46,491 nucleotides of DNA from contig CAIXIJ010000082.1 in assembly GCA_903919455.1 (NCBI GenBank), positions 1 through 46,491 on the forward strand. The letters run 5' to 3'. Position 1 is the first letter of the stretch, and each line of letters starts with the position of its first letter. The notes beneath the pieces are model-generated. The model did not search any database. It was not told the DNA's origin and was given only the letters and a program-made list of their open reading frames with translations. Source of the stretch: an uncultured Acidimicrobiaceae bacterium. GTDB lineage: Bacteria; Actinomycetota; Acidimicrobiia; Acidimicrobiales; Ilumatobacteraceae. A program made the translations under genes and the position numbers. Below are positions 3,845 to 37,095 of the stretch, piece after piece.

Positions 3845-4332
3845 GGAGGCACCATCCACCGGCGAGGCCAGTCGACGGCCTGAGAGATGCCCACACGAGG
3901 TGTCACGATCGGCATCAGCGGCGGTGCCACACCATCGTCGAACAACTCTGCAAGCCGGCCATCCCACGAGCGGTCGATGCCGAGTTCCCGAGTGAGGCGT
4001 CCGGGCCCCACGGTGCGTGCCGACGGAGTGCCGGGCAACTCCACCGCCCGAATCAGCACCGCCTGTCCGTCGCCCTCAGCGCCGGTGACCAGGTTCACGC
4101 AGTGATGCAGGCCGTAGATGAGGTACACGTACCAGTGCCCCGGGGGTCCGAACATCGCAGCGTTGCGCTGGGTGCGGCCACGGAACGAGTGGCTGGCTGG
4201 ATCGTCGGCCGTGTACGCCTCCACCTCGGTGATGCGCGCCAATCGACCATCGACGCGCATCAACTGGTTCAACAGGCGTGGCGCCACCTCCGTGGCGTCG
4301 GCCTCAGCGAACGTCGCCGGTAGTCGCCGCAC
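3811..4332 (-). CDS. mpg: DNA-3-methyladenine glycosylase (AAG/MPG family)
   Basis: This base-excision repair enzyme removes alkylated purines. About 173 residues carry the AAG fold: ATEVAPRLLNQLM near the N-terminus, the catalytic ITEVEAYTADDPASHSF block (general-base Glu in EVEAY) and the MFGPPGHWYVYLIYG block that inserts into the DNA. These are followed by HHCVN and AVLIRAVEL. GTG 4332 gives a protein that starts where the family does, but no Shine-Dalgarno precedes it. Its first 29 bp overlap the end of argH, so it is probably translated by coupling at the end of the arg operon. The open frame continues upstream without family similarity. Its 3' end overlaps DUF2332 by 34 bp. Confidence 0.9.
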   Translation of the reverse strand: MRRLPATFAEADATEVAPRLLNQLMRVDGRLARITEVEAYTADDPASHSFRGRTQRNAAMFGPPGHWYVYLIYGLHHCVNLVTGAEGDGQAVLIRAVELPGTPSARTVGPGRLTRELGIDRSWDGRLAELFDDGVAPPLMPIVTPRVGISQAVDWPRRWMVPPQASAGSQRNQ

Positions 4333-5695
4333 GAAGTTCGGCCAGCTTGATGCGGAACCGTTCGAGTTGCACCGCCACGGGCGCGGGGCCGGCCCCACCG
4401 GGGGTGGTACGACGCTGCACCGACACACCCGGTGCCACCAGCGCGGCGGCCTCCGGGCCGAGCGCGGGGTCGGCCGCCACCAGATCGCGCAGCGCACCCT
4501 CCCCTGCCAGGGTGCGGCGAACGAGCGCGCCAACGATGGCGTGAGCGTCGCGGAACGGAGTGCCGCGTTGCACCAACCACTCGGCAAGATCCGTCGCGGA
4601 ACTGGTCTCTGCATCGGCCGCGGCCTGCATGCGTTCGGGCACCCACGCGGCCGTGGCGATCATGCCGGTGACTGCGCCGAGCGCCAAGCGAATCTGATCC
4701 ATCGCGTCGAACAGGGGCTCTTTGTCTTCCTGGTAGTCGCGGTTGTAGCTGAGCGGCAGACCCTTCATCGTGGCGAGGAATCCGGTGAGATCGCCGATGA
4801 GGCGGCCAGCCTTGCCACGGGCGAGTTCAGCGATGTCGGGGTTCTTCTTCTGCGGCAGCATGGAAGAGCCGGTGGCGTAGCCGTCGTCGAGCTTGGCGAA
4901 CCCGAACTCGTCGGTGGTCCAGAGCACGAATTCCTCACCCATGCGCGACAGGTTGATGCCCACCAGCGTGAGCACGAACAGCGCCTCGGCAATGTGATCG
5001 CGGGAACCGACTGCGTCAAGCGAGTTCTCGAATCGCCCCGCGAAGCCGAGCTCGGTGGCGGTGAAGTCGGGGTCGAGCGGCAGCGACGAACCGGCCAATG
5101 CACCAGCGCCAAGTGGCGAGACATCGATTCGCTCCAGGGCGTCGAGCATGCGCTCGACATCGCGACCGAGCGCCCAACCGTGGGCGAGCAGGTGGTGTGC
5201 CAACAGCACCGGTTGCGCGCGTTGCAGATGCGTGTAGCCGGGCAGGTACGTGCCACCCGCTGCCTCTGCGCGCTGCAGCAGCACGTCCTGCAGTGCGACC
5301 ACTCGTTGCGCCACCACCATCAGTTCGCGCTTCAGCCACAGGCGAACGTCGGTGGCCGACTGATCGTTGCGGCTCCGGCCGGTGTGCAGCTTGGCTCCAG
5401 CCGGGCCAGCAAGTTCCGTAACACGTCGCTCGACAGCGGTGTGGATGTCTTCGTCGCTGGGTCCGAAGGCGAATGATCCGTCGCCCATCTCGGAGGCGAC
5501 CTGCTCTAGCGCAACGAGCACGGCGTCGCGTTCTGCCTCGGTGAGGATGCCCACGCGGGCAAGGCCGCGCACATGTGCCACGGAGCCGGCGATGTCGTCG
5601 GGCCAGAGGCGCTGGTCGAACGACAGACTCTCCGTGTACGCCATCAACTCTGCGGCTGGACCACCTTCGAAACGACCGTGCCACAGCGTGCTCAC
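4304..5695 (-). CDS. argH: Argininosuccinate lyase
   Basis: This enzyme catalyses the last step of arginine synthesis, splitting argininosuccinate into arginine and fumarate. The protein has 463 residues, normal for the fumarase/aspartase superfamily. Visible motifs are GRSRND at 106-111, YTHLQ at 154-158 (catalytic His region) and the mobile signature loop GSSMLPQKKNP at 276-286 with the catalytic Ser. It starts with GTG at 5695, overlapping the argR stop in GTGA. In most actinobacteria argG lies between argR and argH; here argR abuts argH directly and argG must be elsewhere if present. Confidence 0.97.
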   Translation of the reverse strand: MSTLWHGRFEGGPAAELMAYTESLSFDQRLWPDDIAGSVAHVRGLARVGILTEAERDAVLVALEQVASEMGDGSFAFGPSDEDIHTAVERRVTELAGPAGAKLHTGRSRNDQSATDVRLWLKRELMVVAQRVVALQDVLLQRAEAAGGTYLPGYTHLQRAQPVLLAHHLLAHGWALGRDVERMLDALERIDVSPLGAGALAGSSLPLDPDFTATELGFAGRFENSLDAVGSRDHIAEALFVLTLVGINLSRMGEEFVLWTTDEFGFAKLDDGYATGSSMLPQKKNPDIAELARGKAGRLIGDLTGFLATMKGLPLSYNRDYQEDKEPLFDAMDQIRLALGAVTGMIATAAWVPERMQAAADAETSSATDLAEWLVQRGTPFRDAHAIVGALVRRTLAGEGALRDLVAADPALGPEAAALVAPGVSVQRRTTPGGAGPAPVAVQLERFRIKLAELRAATTGDVR

Positions 5696-6159
5696 GACAG
5701 ACCCGCCAGTTCTCTCAGATGGTCGCGCAATGACTCGCCACCGACTCCTTCTTCAGCCACACACAGGAGGGTGTCGTCACCGGCCACCGTGCCCAGAATG
5801 CCGGGCAGACCAGAGCGGTCGAGCGCAGATGCCACCACGTGTGCGCAACCCGGAGGGGTGCGCAACACGACCAGGTTGCCGCTATGACGAACCTCGGCCA
5901 CCCACTCGCCCATCACCCGACGCAATTGATCCTCCGGCGCGATGCGCTGCGGCTCGTACTCCGGGATGGCGTACACCGTGTCGCCTCCAGGCACCCGCAC
6001 CTTCACTGCACCGAGGTCGTCGAGGTCGCGCGACACCGTTGCCTGTGTGGCGGCAATGCCATCCTCTGCCAGAAGGTCGACGAGTTGCGGCTGGTTGGTG
6101 ACCGCGTGCTTGGCGATGAGCCGAGCGATGGCCTGTTGACGTTGCACCTTCGATGCCAT
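5692..6159 (-). CDS. argR: Arginine repressor ArgR
   Basis: This is the transcriptional regulator of arginine genes, a hexamer that binds ARG boxes when arginine is bound. It has 155 residues, the normal length. The N-terminal winged helix-turn-helix covers about 1-65 (TQATVSRDLDDLG at 38-50 is the recognition helix region). The C-terminal oligomerisation and arginine-binding domain has the GTVAGDDT motif at 123-130. It sits inside the operon it presumably controls, 1 bp after argF. The dyad at 10125-10156 over the argC promoter is the obvious candidate target. Confidence 0.95.
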   Translation of the reverse strand: MASKVQRQQAIARLIAKHAVTNQPQLVDLLAEDGIAATQATVSRDLDDLGAVKVRVPGGDTVYAIPEYEPQRIAPEDQLRRVMGEWVAEVRHSGNLVVLRTPPGCAHVVASALDRSGLPGILGTVAGDDTLLCVAEEGVGGESLRDHLRELAGLS

Positions 6160-6160
6160 G

Positions 6161-7057
6161 TCAGCGAACTCCCATCAGAAATGCCAGCGCTCCGCGCGCG
6201 GCGTGCAATCGGTTGTGTGCTTGAGCGATGACATGGCTCTGTGGGCCATCAATCACCTCGGGCATCACTTCGTAGCCCCGATACGCCGGCAGGCAGTGGT
6301 AGAAGCCGGCGCCCGGTGCTGCAGCAGCCATCATCGCGGCGTCGACGCCGTACCCCTCGAACACCTTCACCCGTTCAGCTTTTTCGGCTTCCTGGCCCAT
6401 GGATGTCCAGGTGTCGGTGTGCACCGCGATGGTTCCTTCAACAGCGTCGAGCGCACGCGCGGTCTGGCGCACCTGGCCCGCTCCGAGCGAGTTCAGTCGC
6501 TCCAACTCGGCCTGTGTGCAGTCGTAGCCCACTGGGCAACCCAACGACACGTTCACTCCGAGGATCACGCAGATCTCGGCAAGCGAACGCGACACGTTGT
6601 TCCAGTCGCCCACGAACGCCACCGTCCGATCGTCGAGCGAACCATGCACCTGCTGCATGGTGAGCATGTCGGCCAAGGCCTGCAACGGGTGCGACCAGTC
6701 GCTGAGCATGTTCACCACGGGCACCGGACTACACGCCGCCATGCGCACGACCTTGTCGTGCTGGAACACACGCGCTGCGAGCAGCGCGTGGTAGCCGGCC
6801 ATCACGCGGGTGACGTCCTCCACGCTCTCGCGCACGTCGAGGCCGATCTCCTCGCCACGGGTGTACACGGGGTGGCCACCGAGGTGCACCACCGCCATCT
6901 CCATCGAGTGCCGTGTGCGGTTCGAAGGCTTCTCGAAGATCAGGGCAACACCCTGGCCATCGAGCACGTTGGGAAGACCGGGACGCTGCGCGAGTTGCAG
7001 CATGGTGACGAGTTCGTCGCTCGTGAAATCGGTGATGTCGAGCAGGTGCCTGGTCAT
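6161..7057 (-). CDS. argF: Ornithine carbamoyltransferase
   Basis: This enzyme forms citrulline from ornithine and carbamoyl phosphate, which links it to carAB in this window. It has 298 residues. The carbamoyl-phosphate loop reads SNRTR at 45-49, where STRTR or SARTR is commoner, so Asn in the second position is a mild variant. HPLQALADMLT (residue about 125) and HCLPAYRG at 254-261 complete the active site. ATG 7057 overlaps the argD stop in ATGA, and the start is well supported by the family N-terminus (RHLLDITDFT). Confidence 0.96.
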   Translation of the reverse strand: MTRHLLDITDFTSDELVTMLQLAQRPGLPNVLDGQGVALIFEKPSNRTRHSMEMAVVHLGGHPVYTRGEEIGLDVRESVEDVTRVMAGYHALLAARVFQHDKVVRMAACSPVPVVNMLSDWSHPLQALADMLTMQQVHGSLDDRTVAFVGDWNNVSRSLAEICVILGVNVSLGCPVGYDCTQAELERLNSLGAGQVRQTARALDAVEGTIAVHTDTWTSMGQEAEKAERVKVFEGYGVDAAMMAAAAPGAGFYHCLPAYRGYEVMPEVIDGPQSHVIAQAHNRLHAARGALAFLMGVR

Positions 7058-8250
7058 GACGCCACCTCCTCCAGTACGGACCGAAGAATGGCCACTGCTT
7101 CGGCGATTTCGGCCGACGACACCGTGAGCGGCGGCGCAAGTCGCAGCGCCGTGGCGTTCACGGCGTTGGTGACGAGGCCACGTTCCAATGCGGCGAGGTA
7201 CACGGTCTTGGCATCCACGCCATCGAGTTCCATCGCAAGCAACAATCCGGCACCGCGCACCTCGGTGACGTGCGGCAGTGCGCGCAGCGCAGCGCTGAGT
7301 TCGGCTCCACGCTCGCGTGCGAGCCGCGGCGCATCGATGCGGTGCATCTCGTCGATCACCGCACTGACAGCCGCTGTGGCGATGGCCGTGCCGCTGTAGG
7401 TGCTGCCGTGATCGCCCGGCTGGAACACGCCGGCCACGGAACGCTTGGCCCACACCGCTCCCACAGGAAAGCCATTGCCCATCGCCTTTGCGAGGGTGAC
7501 CACATCCGGCACCACGCCGGCGTGTTGGAAGCCGAACCATTCGCCGGTGCGAGCGAAACCGGTCTGCACCTCGTCGATCATCAGCAGCAGGCCGCGTTCG
7601 TCGCAGAGCGCGCGGACTGCCCGCAGGTAGTCCGGGTCGGCGGGCACGACTCCGCCTTCGCCCTGCACGGGCTCGAGCAGCACGGCGGCGATGGTCGGGT
7701 CGATGGCTGCTTCGAGGGCAGCAAGGTCGTTGAAAGGAACGTGTCGGAACCCGTCGGGCATCGGCTGGAACGGCTCGTGCTTGGCCGGTTGCCCGGTGGC
7801 CGCCAACGCTGCGAGGGTGCGACCATGGAAGCTGCCATAGGCGCTGATGACCCCGTGACGCCCACGACCGCCGAACTTGCGCGCCAGTTTCAGCGCCGCC
7901 TCGTTGGCCTCTGCTCCGCTGTTGCAGAAGAACACCTGGCCCTGCTCGCCGGTGGCAGCCTCGAGCATCGAGACCAGTTGCACAGCGGCACGCGTGGCCA
8001 CCGGGTTCGCAAAGAAGTTGCTGACGTGCAGCAGCGTGGTCGCCTGCTCTGCGATGGCCTTCGCCACCACGGGGTTCGAGTGCCCCAGCGAGGTGACTGC
8101 GATACCGCACAGGAAGTCGAGATACCTCTTGCCAGACGAGTCCCACAGCTCGGTGCCGCTACCACGCTCGAACATCACCTGCGGAGCGCCGAAGACGGGC
8201 ATGAACGGGCAGTACTGGAGACCGCCCTCGTCGAATGCGTGCGAACTCAT
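7054..8250 (-). CDS. argD: Acetylornithine aminotransferase
   Basis: This PLP-dependent class III aminotransferase makes N-acetylornithine from the semialdehyde. It has 398 residues. Visible features are the PLP-site region FCNSGAEANEAALKLARK, DEVQTGFARTG (the Asp that binds the pyridine nitrogen) and the Schiff-base lysine in TLAKAMGNGFPVGA. ATG 8250 overlaps the argB stop in ATGA and gives a normal N-terminus. A longer frame to 8364 would run into argB and is rejected. Confidence 0.96.
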   Translation of the reverse strand: MSSHAFDEGGLQYCPFMPVFGAPQVMFERGSGTELWDSSGKRYLDFLCGIAVTSLGHSNPVVAKAIAEQATTLLHVSNFFANPVATRAAVQLVSMLEAATGEQGQVFFCNSGAEANEAALKLARKFGGRGRHGVISAYGSFHGRTLAALAATGQPAKHEPFQPMPDGFRHVPFNDLAALEAAIDPTIAAVLLEPVQGEGGVVPADPDYLRAVRALCDERGLLLMIDEVQTGFARTGEWFGFQHAGVVPDVVTLAKAMGNGFPVGAVWAKRSVAGVFQPGDHGSTYSGTAIATAAVSAVIDEMHRIDAPRLARERGAELSAALRALPHVTEVRGAGLLLAMELDGVDAKTVYLAALERGLVTNAVNATALRLAPPLTVSSAEIAEAVAILRSVLEEVAS

Positions 8251-9107
8251 CTGACCATCGTTCCAATCCCCTCGTCGGTGAAGATTTCGAGCAGCAGCAC
8301 GTGGGGAATGCGACCGTCGAGAATGTGGGCGCGACGCACGCCGTTTCGAACCGCATGCACGCAACTCTCCACCTTCGGGATCATTCCCCCGGCGATGGTG
8401 CCATCGGACATCAGTGCATCGAGTTCATCAGGAGTGGTCTGGCGAATGAGGCTGTCGGGATCGCTCACCACACGGCGCAAGCCCTCGATGTCGGTGAGGT
8501 AGACGAGTTTCTCGGCACCGAGCGCCTCGGCAATCGCCCCAGCGACGGTGTCGGCGTTGATGTTGTACGCCTGACCCAGTTCATCCGTACCGATGGTGGC
8601 CACCACGGGCACAAACTCGTCGTCGAGCAGCGCCTGAAGAATGGTGGGGTTGATGGACTCCACATCGCCCACGAAGCCGAGCTCCGGGTCGCGAGCCGTA
8701 GCTCGAATCAGACCGGCGTCCTCGCCGCTCACGCCAACGGCAAGCGAGCCGTGCACATTGATGGCTGCCACGAGCTGCGGGTTCACCTGACCGATGAGCA
8801 CCATACGCACGATGTCGACGGTCTCGCTGTCGGTGACGCGCAACCCGTTGCGAAACTCGGTGACCTTGCCCAACCGTTGCATCAGATCGCTGATCTGCGG
8901 ACCGCCGCCATGCACCACCACCGGCCGCATGCCCACCTGGCGCATCAGCACGATGTCTTCCGCGAACAACTGCAACGCGTCGTCCTCGCTGGCTCCAGCA
9001 AGCGCGTTGCCGCCGTACTTCACCACCACCACCTGGCCGGCGAACCGGCGGATGTAGGGAAGGGCCTCGACCAGCACGGCCGCTTTGTCGAAGGGTGTTG
9101 CGCTCAC
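8247..9107 (-). CDS. argB: Acetylglutamate kinase
   Basis: This kinase phosphorylates N-acetylglutamate and is commonly the feedback-controlled step of the pathway. It has 286 residues of the amino-acid kinase fold: VVVKYGGNAL near 27-36, VVHGGGPQIS near 63-72 and the substrate/ATP region YNINADTVAGAIAEALGAEKLVYLTDIEG. It starts with GTG at 9107 in a GTGA overlap with argC. In the common actinobacterial order argJ would lie between argC and argB, but the overlap leaves no room for it. Confidence 0.97.
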   Translation of the reverse strand: MSATPFDKAAVLVEALPYIRRFAGQVVVVKYGGNALAGASEDDALQLFAEDIVLMRQVGMRPVVVHGGGPQISDLMQRLGKVTEFRNGLRVTDSETVDIVRMVLIGQVNPQLVAAINVHGSLAVGVSGEDAGLIRATARDPELGFVGDVESINPTILQALLDDEFVPVVATIGTDELGQAYNINADTVAGAIAEALGAEKLVYLTDIEGLRRVVSDPDSLIRQTTPDELDALMSDGTIAGGMIPKVESCVHAVRNGVRRAHILDGRIPHVLLLEIFTDEGIGTMVR

Positions 9108-10120
9108 GGATACATCCCTACTGCCGCCAGACCAGCGGTCTCCGGAAGCCCGAGCGCCACGTTGGCGGCCTGTATGGCACCGCCCGACGCCCCCTTGGCC
9201 AGGTTGTCGATGGCGCAGATCGAGATCACCGTGCGGGTGCGCTCGTCGAATCGAACCGTGAGGTGAGCGGCGTTGCTGCCCATCACAGCCTTGGTGGAGG
9301 GCGAGGTCTCACTGACCACAACGAACGGTTCACCGGCGTACGCAGCAGACATCGTTGCCAACAGGGACTCGGTGGACATATCCGCTGCGGGTTTGGCGTA
9401 GCACGTTGCCAGGATGCCGCGATTCATCGGGGCGAGATGCGGGGTGAACAGCACCCCTGCGCCAACCTCCTGTTCGATCTCGGGCGTGTGCCGGTGGTCG
9501 AGCAATCCATAGGCCTGCACATCCTCGTCGGCGCTGCAGAAGAGGCTGGAGTGCTTGAGACCGCGGCCGGCACCGCTGATGCCGGTGATGCTGTTCACCA
9601 CGATCCCGGATGTCTGCACCAAGCCAGCCCGTACGAACGGGGCCAGGGCCAGTGTGGCGGCCGTGACATGACAGCCGGGCGTGGCGACGAGCCGGGCCCC
9701 CTTCAGCGCTGCGCGGTGCAACTCGGGTAACCCGTAGACCGCCTCGGCCAGCATCGCCGGTTGGTCGTGCTCGAAGCCGTACCAACCCGGGTACAGCGAG
9801 GCGTCCTTCAACCGATACGCGGCCGACAGGTCGACGATGCAGCCCACGGAACCCACCAATTGCGGCGCCAAGGCCATGCTGGCCTCGTGCGGAAGCCCCA
9901 GGAACACCACGTCGAGGCCTTCGGCCCGGGCTGGGTCGAAGGCCTCGAACACCAGATCAGGGAACTTGGCAGCGAGGCTGGGATACAGCGAGGCTGCCCG
10001 TACCCCTGCCTGCGTATCGCCGGTGGCGTACGCCACTTCGAAGTCGGGGTGCTGCGCACACAACCGCAGGAGTTCGGCGCCGGTGTAACCCGACGCTCCG
10101 AGGATGCCTACTCGCGTCAT
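9104..10120 (-). CDS. argC: N-acetyl-gamma-glutamyl-phosphate reductase
   Basis: This NADPH-dependent enzyme reduces N-acetylglutamyl phosphate to the semialdehyde. It has 338 residues. The nucleotide-binding GASGYTG is at 8-14 and the catalytic Cys is in ATPGC, at residue 150. As first gene of the arg operon it starts at ATG 10120, only 9 nt after a TATGAT -10 box. The message is therefore probably leaderless; no Shine-Dalgarno is present. The start matches the family N-terminus (RVGILGASGYTG). Confidence 0.97.
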   Translation of the reverse strand: MTRVGILGASGYTGAELLRLCAQHPDFEVAYATGDTQAGVRAASLYPSLAAKFPDLVFEAFDPARAEGLDVVFLGLPHEASMALAPQLVGSVGCIVDLSAAYRLKDASLYPGWYGFEHDQPAMLAEAVYGLPELHRAALKGARLVATPGCHVTAATLALAPFVRAGLVQTSGIVVNSITGISGAGRGLKHSSLFCSADEDVQAYGLLDHRHTPEIEQEVGAGVLFTPHLAPMNRGILATCYAKPAADMSTESLLATMSAAYAGEPFVVVSETSPSTKAVMGSNAAHLTVRFDERTRTVISICAIDNLAKGASGGAIQAANVALGLPETAGLAAVGMYP

Positions 10121-10124
10121 AGAC

Positions 10125-10156
10125 GCATGATCATACAGATTCTCGTATTGTCATGC
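10125..10156 (-). promoter_or_regulatory. Dyad operator over the argC promoter, candidate ArgR site
   Basis: The arms GCATGACAATAC (10156-10145) and GTATGATCATGC (10136-10125) form an inverted repeat with 10 of 12 positions paired and an 8-nt centre. The dyad runs from inside the -35 through the whole -10 of the argC promoter, the classical place for a repressor. ArgR boxes are AT-rich dyads and argR is in this operon, so ArgR is the natural ligand. The match to the E. coli ARG box is only partial. Confidence 0.6.
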
Positions 10157-10158
10157 AA
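10130..10158 (-). promoter_or_regulatory. argC promoter, probably leaderless
   Basis: TTGCAT (10158-10153) and TATGAT (10135-10130) are separated by exactly 17 bp. The -10 matches TATAAT at five of six positions; the -35 matches only TTG. The -10 ends 9 nt before the argC ATG, which places the expected start of transcription within a few nt of the start codon. The -35 overlaps the stop codon of the upstream DUF4230 gene (TGA 10153-10151). Confidence 0.65.
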
Positions 10159-10813
10159 CGCTGACGGGGTCCGCCACGAACCGCACATCGACGGTCGTGA
10201 CGCCGAGGCCGCCGAGCATGGTCGTGAGCATCGAGCGCACATTCGCCTGAGCGGTTGCCAGCAGATCGGTGGACACCGCAGCGTCAGCGATCTTCTTCGA
10301 TGCGGCGTCGTAGAGCGTCACTTCGCTGGTTGGACTGTCGCTGAAGATGCCACCGATGCGGTTCAGAATGCCGCGGTCGCGGTTCATCACATGGCTGAGC
10401 GAGCGGTCGAACTGCGGCTCCCCGAGGGTCGCCATCGGCACCTCGATCGTGGCACTTGTGCGATCAGCGCTGAACACCACCGCGCCATCTCCGAGGTGCG
10501 AGAAGTCGACCACCGCATCCACGCTGGCGACTGCCACGAACTGCACCCGTTCACCGGCGAGGGCCGCAGGCAGATACTTCACGTCCTGCTCCTGGTCGAT
10601 GGTGACCTCGAAGCGGCCCTGGGCGGCGTGGTAATCCGCAAGATCGCGGAGGTCGAGCAAAATTGGCGGCGCCGAGTGATCGACCGTCTGCGTGGCGAAC
10701 GGGTTGCCGATCTGCAGACCCACCCCCACTGCAAGAGCGACCAAGGCCCCGACCACCAACCCCACGATGAGGGTGGGAAGTGACCGACGACGCGGCGAGC
10801 GCTGCTGGAACAT
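10151..10813 (-). CDS. DUF4230 domain protein, single-pass membrane
   Basis: The protein has 220 residues: a short basic N-terminus, one transmembrane segment at about 12-34, then an extracytoplasmic DUF4230 domain. Family features are EQDVKYLPAALAGERVQFVAVASVDAVVDFSHL followed by IEVPMATLGEPQFD and the RDRGILNRIGG segment (quoted in parts; together about residues 75-165). The function is unknown. ATG 10813 has AAGGAG 6-7 nt upstream. It reads into the arg operon but argC has its own promoter overlapping this stop codon. It is divergent from yqgE with a 62-bp gap. Confidence 0.82.
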   Translation of the reverse strand: MFQQRSPRRRSLPTLIVGLVVGALVALAVGVGLQIGNPFATQTVDHSAPPILLDLRDLADYHAAQGRFEVTIDQEQDVKYLPAALAGERVQFVAVASVDAVVDFSHLGDGAVVFSADRTSATIEVPMATLGEPQFDRSLSHVMNRDRGILNRIGGIFSDSPTSEVTLYDAASKKIADAAVSTDLLATAQANVRSMLTTMLGGLGVTTVDVRFVADPVSVA

Positions 10814-10875
10814 GATGTTCTCCTTCGGTGGCCCCCTGTGGCCCACCGAACGGTTTGGACGTGCAGAATGGGAGT

Positions 10876-11448
10876 GTGAGTTCCCACGACGCACCAATTC
10901 CTGGCTCCACCAAGGGCCAACTGCTGGTGGCCACTCCCCCGCTCGTCGATCCCAACTTCGATCGCACCGTGGTGTACGTGCTCGAGCATCACGATGACGG
11001 CGCCGTGGGGGTCGTGCTGAATCGGCCAACGATGCACCAACTCCCCGACGGCATCGCCCGCTGGGAGCCTCATCTCAGCGGGCCTTCGGTGCTGTTCGAC
11101 GGCGGCCCAGTTGCAATGGATGCATTGATCGCGCTGGCCCGGGTGGAACACCCCGACGACGATGTGTGGAGCCCTGTGGTGGGCGACCTTTCATCGGTCG
11201 ATCTTGCGCTCGACCCCGGACTGGTGGCGGAAGGAGTGCACTCGCTGCGCGTGTTCCGCGGCTATTCAGGCTGGGGGGCCCACCAACTCGAGGGTGAACT
11301 GGCCGAAGGCGCCTGGATGGTGCTGCCGGCCCACGCCGACGACGTGTTCTGCTCCGAACCAGACAGCCTGTGGCGCGCCGTGCTGCGCCGCCAAGGCGGA
11401 CGCGTTGCCTGGGTGGCCAACGCCCCCGACGACCTCAGCTCGAACTGA
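10876..11448 (+). CDS. YqgE/AlgH family protein (DUF179)
   Basis: The protein has about 190 residues, the usual size for the family. Characteristic segments are GQLLVATPPLVDPNFDRTVV, VVLNRPT, GGPV, and RVFRGYSGWG followed by QLEGELAEGAW. The molecular function is not established; Pseudomonas AlgH was linked to alginate gene expression, but that role need not apply here. GTG 10876 is the best start. A GGGAG is too close (1 nt) to be a normal Shine-Dalgarno, and a weak -10 (CAGAAT, 10864-10869) 6 nt upstream hints at leaderless expression. It is a single plus-strand gene ending 7 bp from the convergent pheT end. Confidence 0.92.
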   Translation: MSSHDAPIPGSTKGQLLVATPPLVDPNFDRTVVYVLEHHDDGAVGVVLNRPTMHQLPDGIARWEPHLSGPSVLFDGGPVAMDALIALARVEHPDDDVWSPVVGDLSSVDLALDPGLVAEGVHSLRVFRGYSGWGAHQLEGELAEGAWMVLPAHADDVFCSEPDSLWRAVLRRQGGRVAWVANAPDDLSSN

Positions 11449-36531: not shown

Positions 36532-37095
36532 TCAGACCCGGGTGATGTAATCGCCGGAGCGGGTGTCGACCTTGACCTTGTCGCCCACGTTGATGAACAG
36601 CGGCACCTTCACGACCTTGCCGGTCTCGAGCGTGGCCGGCTTGGTGGCGCCACTGACGCGATCGCCCTGGATACCCGGCTCCGTGTCGGTGATGGTGAGT
36701 TCCACCGATGCAGGAATTTCCACGGTGACAATGTCGCCGTTGTAGAAGGCGATGATGGCCACGGAGTTCTCCACCATGTAGTCGGCGGCGTCGCCGAGGG
36801 CAACGGGCGACACGTGCTGCTGGTCGTAGCTCTCGAGATCCATGAACACGTACTCGTCGCCGTCGCGGTACAGGAACTGCATGTCCTTGCGATCGAGGAT
36901 GGCTTGCTCCACGCGAACGCCAGCGTTAAACGTGCGGTCGATGACGGCACCGTTGCGCAGGTTGCGGATCTTGGAGCGCACGAAGGCGCCGCCCTTGCCC
37001 GGCTTGACATGCTGGAACTCGACGACCTGGAACAGGACGCCGTCGAGCTCCAGGGTGATGCCGTTCTTCAGATCGTTGGTGGTGATGGCGGGCAC
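36532..37095 (-). CDS. efp: Elongation factor P
   Basis: EF-P relieves ribosome stalling at proline runs. It has 187 residues, the normal length, with three beta-barrel domains. The tip loop KPGKGGAF has Lys at position 34, the residue modified in other bacteria. No epmA/epmB modification gene is in the window. GTG 37095 has AAGGA 6 nt upstream; longer in-frame starts would enter pepQ. Its first 28 bp already overlap the pepQ end. Confidence 0.97.

Follow-up and report, generated by a model that had tools for sequence, protein, structure and literature searches.

Introduction

In S. coelicolor, the boxes in fragments shifted by ArgR, as tabulated in PMC5839063, include contiguous 20-bp pairs at argC, argG, argH and arcB. 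The E. coli ArgR operators, as far as they are treated in the relevant part of PMC3293853, also consist of two ARG boxes that overlap the promoter, with one known exception, an arrangement shared by the locus described here.

We analyzed the region upstream of argC in a 46,491-nt contig, hereafter called the window, from an uncultured Acidimicrobiaceae bacterium (GTDB family Ilumatobacteraceae, the host's family), in which a tandem pair of ARG boxes coincides with a predicted leaderless promoter. In leaderless promoters, the −10 hexamer usually lies about 6–9 nt before the start codon. Such promoters reportedly occur in Actinobacteria, the study of M. tuberculosis in PMC3898074 being the case in point. 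A literature search for an arginine repressor in Acidimicrobi found no paper, and one for ArgR and a leaderless argC gave a single paper, on E. coli and Klebsiella; neither search, with most subscription papers outside it, found a description of the fused arrangement.

Two Abutting ARG Boxes Upstream of argC

Read on the minus strand, the argC start codon ATG is directly preceded by the 40 bp CGTTGCATGACAATACGAGA ATCTGTATGATCATGCGTCT (Table 1). The earlier note, made from the letters of the window, had described 10118–10160 as a 12-nt dyad (10 of 12 paired, 8-nt centre) spanning the −35 and −10 hexamers of a leaderless argC promoter, with ArgR as its likely ligand. This stretch comprises exactly the ATG and two 20-bp boxes. 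The dyad, the hexamers, their 17-nt spacer and the 9 nt between the −10 hexamer and the ATG proved exact to the base, and the −35 hexamer overlaps the stop codon of the upstream gene as described, by one base, the TGA lying inside box A. The note had, however, considered the site “not a textbook ARG box”, which was wrong: rather than one 12-nt dyad departing from the ARG box, the 40 bp are two abutting tandem ARG boxes, each of 20 bp and of Streptomyces type, and they are conserved (see below), in keeping with the proposed operator over the argC promoter.

Table 1. Position of the operator, promoter and gene features in the window.
Feature	Position	Strand	Remarks
ARG box A, promoter-distal	10141..10160	−	CGTTGCATGACAATACGAGA; 12.0 bits (S. 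coelicolor EMSA-derived matrix); kept in family
ARG box B, promoter-proximal	10121..10140	−	ATCTGTATGATCATGCGTCT; 13.8 bits (S. coelicolor EMSA-derived matrix); kept in family
−35 hexamer TTGCAT	10153..10158	−	last five bases form the left half-site of box A
−10 hexamer TATGAT	10130..10135	−	begins within the left half-site of box B
Dyad arms	10125–10136 and 10145–10156		8-nt centre at 10137–10144
TGA of upstream gene	10153..10151	−	
argC start codon ATG	10120..10118	−	
DUF4230 gene	10151..11029	−	upstream, co-directional, start uncertain; PF14014 75 bits, cut-off 27
argC	9104..10120	−	TIGR01850 380 bits, cut-off 233.6; start codon directly 3' of box B
argB	8247..9107	−	second cluster gene; TIGR00761 above cut-off
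argD	7054..8364	−	PRK03244 above cut-off; match from residue 54; true start probably further in than the ORF limit
argF	6161..7093	−	PRK00779 above cut-off; TIGR00658 just below its own
argR	5692..6159	−	TIGR01529 above cut-off; PRK03341 below its own; both Pfam ArgR domains
argH	4304..5695	−	directly after argR; TIGR00838 above cut-off

The boxes were scored with a symmetric matrix derived from 37 boxes in gel-shifted S. coelicolor DNA, namely those in Table 1 of PMC5839063 not marked there as excluded from the paper's own model. When the matrix was passed over the window, the best tandem pair was the one at 10121–10160, with 25.8 bits; the runner-up had 8.5 bits, and the highest tandem pair in 30 dinucleotide shuffles of the window reached 18.9 bits. 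The strongest single ARG-box-like match lies elsewhere, at 36875–36894 (AACTGCATGTCCTTGCGATC, 13.87 bits), outside the ten best tandem pairs. Since this single match is similar in strength to the boxes at argC, it is the pair, and not the single box, that is distinctive.

The site shows four features of an actinomycete ArgR/AhrC operator: imperfectly palindromic boxes of 18–20 bp that fit the model of bound sites, contiguous tandem boxes with 20-bp spacing, a position at the predicted promoter of an arginine-biosynthesis gene and an ArgR encoded in the same genome. With its period of 20, it does not follow the E. coli-type pattern, in which 3 bp separate the 18-bp boxes and the period is 21.

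Conservation in the Family and Beyond

ArgC was searched for in 150 genomes of the host's family, and 144 of these, the host's own included, gave a match, representing 27 genera. The counts of pairs, columns and start codons given below are from 130 of them (again including the host), which reduce to 123 distinct operators after seven rows that duplicated the 40-mer of another row were collapsed; six further loci were added separately. The others were left unused because the N-terminal part of ArgC lay outside the match (G130, G148 and G009, the first two of which start at a contig end) or because the ArgC match was weak (G077, G083, G110, G112 and G137, E-values from 1e-5 to 4e-4). Loci L112–L191, several of which repeat the same contigs or sit far outside the family, were kept out of all counts.

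With the Streptomyces matrix, a tandem pair of at least 12 bits was present no further than 150 bases from the ArgC match in 130/130 family loci and reached at least 15 bits in 128. A period of 20 scored best among periods of 17–24 in all 130, while none of the control stretches at −300 to −150 reached 12 bits (maximum 9.1). The six further family loci, in which the 5' end was in view, had pairs of 17.6–30.1 bits, bringing the total to 136/136. A scan in which the spacers were left free returned a spacing of 4-6-4 in 128 of the 130 loci. When a model was derived from the family itself, leaving out the window and its nearest relative, the minus-strand score of the site was 48.7 bits and its plus-strand score 30.2, the next place in the window having −13.5. 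Protein identity to the ArgC of the window ranges from 96% down to 56% among the family matches, so the match between operators goes beyond what the relatedness of adjacent DNA would bring about. The tandem ARG-box pair and its conservation are far beyond chance. The earlier note had set beforehand that a dyad not conserved among relatives would speak against its reading; the pair turned out to be conserved.

Outside the family, we sampled 60 genomes: all 19 of the remainder of the order and 41 hand-picked to represent a range of families. The pair reached at least 12 bits in 15/19 genomes from other families of the order, 4/21 from the rest of the class and 14/20 from the rest of the phylum. 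ArgR was present in 58 of the 60. The two genomes that lack it also lack the pair (−3.8 and −6.0 bits), but some that have ArgR score equally low (L240, −5.2), and the co-occurrence of ArgR and boxes has little power since nearly all of the genomes have ArgR. In several argC upstream regions (L250, L236, L263, L234, L241, L243, L245 and L253), an inner spacer of 3 nt seemed to be preferred to one of 4 nt, as in L250, which reads TGCATTCTATGCA-6-TGCATAGAATGCG, with a period of 19. This may represent a lineage-specific ARG box that is one base shorter, a lead only, as the optimum was picked among many geometries. Differing inner spacing may also explain part of the patchiness of the pair outside the family.

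Promoter Hexamers and Start Codon

If the 40 bp were a pure pair of ARG boxes, the left and right halves of each box should be equally constrained, and the observed halves are unequal. Column 26, the first T of the −10 hexamer, is T in 123/123 distinct operators, while the mirror position fits in 38/123 (Fisher p = 4e-36), and column 31, the last T (T6), is likewise T in 123/123, with the mirror fitting in 69/123 (p = 6e-20); these p-values ignore kinship, but the invariance of T1 and T6 across 27 genera does not rest on the p-values. The A at the second position is also invariant in all 123, but it is demanded by the ARG box anyway. Column 3, the first T of the −35 hexamer, is T in 97/123, with the mirror fitting in 26/123, and at the equivalent place of box B, T occurs in 16/123. 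The extra constraint thus falls on T1 and T6 of the TA...T of a −10 hexamer and on T1 of the TTG of a −35 hexamer. The latter is weak, since TTGCAT matches TTGACA at three of six positions, as is the case in 95/123 distinct operators. The TTGCAT/TATGAT pair was absent from the output of a simple promoter scan, whose only overlapping match was ATGACA-16-GATCAT, in a region where shuffles gave 1.2 sites on average. On balance, conservation supports the predicted TATGAT −10 hexamer named in the earlier note well, and the putative TTGCAT −35 hexamer less so.

In 130/130 family loci, an in-frame ATG or GTG begins at −3 to +1 nt relative to where box B ends; with the reference point moved to seven other places, this was so in 2 to 22 of the 130. 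The six further loci agreed (6/6). The start codon is at the box edge even where ArgC carries an N-terminal extension (e.g., L017, L031 and L037). The distance from the −10 hexamer to the start codon, 9 nt in the window, is 6–10 nt in all 130 loci, and a Shine–Dalgarno core (AGGA, GGAG or GAGG) is absent at −20 to −4 in every one of them. This absence is a consequence of the layout and not an independent proof, because box B fills that space. Both the −10 distance and the absence of a Shine–Dalgarno site agree with a leaderless promoter, and from the usual distance between −10 hexamer and transcript start, the argC leader is predicted to be 0–4 nt long. The leaderless geometry first proposed for this gene is supported.

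We considered the possibility that the hexamers are merely ARG-box sequence and that argC is expressed from a long message, starting at a promoter 5' of the DUF4230 gene. In its favour, the DUF4230 gene runs in the same direction and has its stop codon within the operator, the promoter scan missed the hexamer pair and made its one overlapping call at chance level, and the −35 hexamer is weak. This explanation does not, however, account for the invariance of T1 and T6 of the −10 hexamer beyond box symmetry, nor for the enrichment of the −35 T1 in box A and not in box B. It is also at odds with the start codon, which holds to the box edge despite a longer ArgC N-terminus, and with the lack of a Shine–Dalgarno core in 130/130 loci. 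We regard it as very unlikely.

A Single Dyad or an RNA Element

The dyad that first drew attention to the site is made up of the outer half-site of box A paired with the outer half-site of box B, and a repeat finder lengthened it to 22-nt arms with 73% pairing. The dyad was probably conspicuous owing to the inner half of box A, which is weaker in the window (ATACG) than in many relatives; among the 123 distinct operators, this half is ATGCA in 60 and ATACG in 10. If the dyad itself were the operator, it could belong to another repressor, with ArgR uninvolved. The dyad is real, with 10 of 12 bases paired, and its outer halves pair at 4/5 positions in the window, compared to 3/5 within each box, and at 3.90/5 on average over the 123 distinct operators, compared to 3.65 within box B. 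In the relatives, however, it is the two halves within box A that pair best (4.33/5), and the position, period and sequence of the site fit the ArgR sites of gel-shifted fragments, as tabulated in PMC5839063. Moreover, the window contains 103 equally good dyads (12 + 12 nt, at least 10 paired, centre of 0–12), eight of them with an 8-nt centre, so that the dyad by itself carries no significance. Such dyads being common in the window, and this one being explained by the tandem boxes, we rejected a single-dyad operator as very improbable. Although RNA hairpins can arise from inverted repeats, control of argC by an attenuator or riboswitch is more improbable still, because with the supported −10 hexamer the predicted transcript start falls at or downstream of the repeats, which would hardly enter the message, and because the sequence fits a protein-operator matrix; an Rfam search of 9600–10700 returned no family at the gathering score.

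Gene Cluster, ArgR and Wider Regulon

The cluster downstream of the operator, argC-B-D-F-R-H, includes argR, and no second PF01316 match was found in the genome (assembly 97% complete). The nearest solved relative of the argR product is the arginine repressor 3ere (identical in sequence to 3fhz, 3laj and 3lap; E = 1e-34), in which TQATLSRDL aligns with the stretch TQATVSRDL. Judged by these matches, the ArgR of the cluster is an ordinary ArgR. Encoded in the cluster, it still appears the likely ligand of the operator. The DUF4230 gene runs into the operator, and read-through from it, giving a longer argC message as well, is possible.

In the host's genome, argG and argJ lie outside the cluster. 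We inspected L212, L213 and L275–L296, in which the N-terminal part is missing from three argG matches and one argJ match. A tandem pair of at least 12 bits was found at none of 13 argG loci of the genus, including L213 (best 6.6 bits), and at none of 11 argJ loci, including L212 (best 11.5 bits, at L292, ≈1.1 kb beyond argJ). The arginine regulon in its usual extent is thus not fully seen. One argJ locus, L290, has an 8.6-bit pair directly before argJ, too weak to call. An ArgJ match was absent in G033 and G098, two genomes of the same genus, both at least 96% complete; another enzyme may take the ArgJ step there.

Discussion

The sequences and tandem period of the boxes, the placing of the hexamers and the start codon, and the conservation of all these, together with the single ArgR match, point to arginine-dependent repression of argC-B-D-F-R-H by ArgR, which would occlude a leaderless promoter; going by sequence, we hold this reading, including the inferred binding and 5' end, to be very probable. 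The operator would consist of the two abutting 20-bp boxes (or, in the older way of counting, of 18-bp boxes 2 bp apart). Arginine-loaded ArgR, if bound to both boxes, would cover the −35 and −10 hexamers together, so that RNA polymerase would presumably be unable to bind. When arginine drops, ArgR would be released and transcription would begin at the start codon or within ≈4 nt of it, yielding a leaderless mRNA. If the cluster is transcribed as one operon, the internal argR would be subject to negative autoregulation as well.

We lean somewhat towards the broader proposal that, at the argC genes of the family, operator, core promoter and start codon constitute one rigid module of ≈43 bp. The 20-bp period of the boxes would set the 17-bp promoter spacer, the first base of each hexamer falling within a left half-site or immediately ahead of one, and the edge of box B would be the place of the start codon. 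With this register, one ArgR hexamer would cover the whole promoter, leaving no room for control in a leader, and ArgR control of biosynthesis has perhaps shrunk to this one operator. The analysis also yields a conserved ARG-box model ready for use in an actinobacterial family and predicts leaderless argC messages throughout that family. Furthermore, comparing symmetric positions can separate promoter constraint from repressor-site constraint where the two overlap.

The resemblance to Streptomyces is close: the operators there, in the parts of PMC5839063 and PMC3293853 that describe them, also comprise two contiguous 20-bp boxes near the gene start, with half-sites TGCAT and ATGCA. The S. coelicolor argC box B1 (GAGAGCATGACTATACGTGC, as tabulated in PMC5839063) and box A have 12/13 bases in common over GCATGAC-ATACG. 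In contrast to Streptomyces, both hexamers at the argC site fall within the boxes, and box B is immediately followed by the start codon; in the one 9.2-Mb genome of the sample (G260, L264), box and start codon are separated by 14 nt with an AGGAGG site. The regulon differs as well, since argG has boxes in S. coelicolor according to the table in PMC5839063, while none of at least 12 bits was found in the genus of the host. In E. coli, the 18-bp boxes are 3 bp apart (2 bp at argR), whereas the period of 20 in the host's family corresponds to 2 bp in 130/130 loci. Like the leaderless promoters of Actinobacteria, the putative one of argC has its predicted transcript start at or near the start codon and no Shine–Dalgarno core; it differs from them in being read from geometry and in being fused with a repressor operator. 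The tandem ArgR operator belongs to a known kind, and only the fused geometry of operator, promoter and start codon, kept throughout the family, is unusual.
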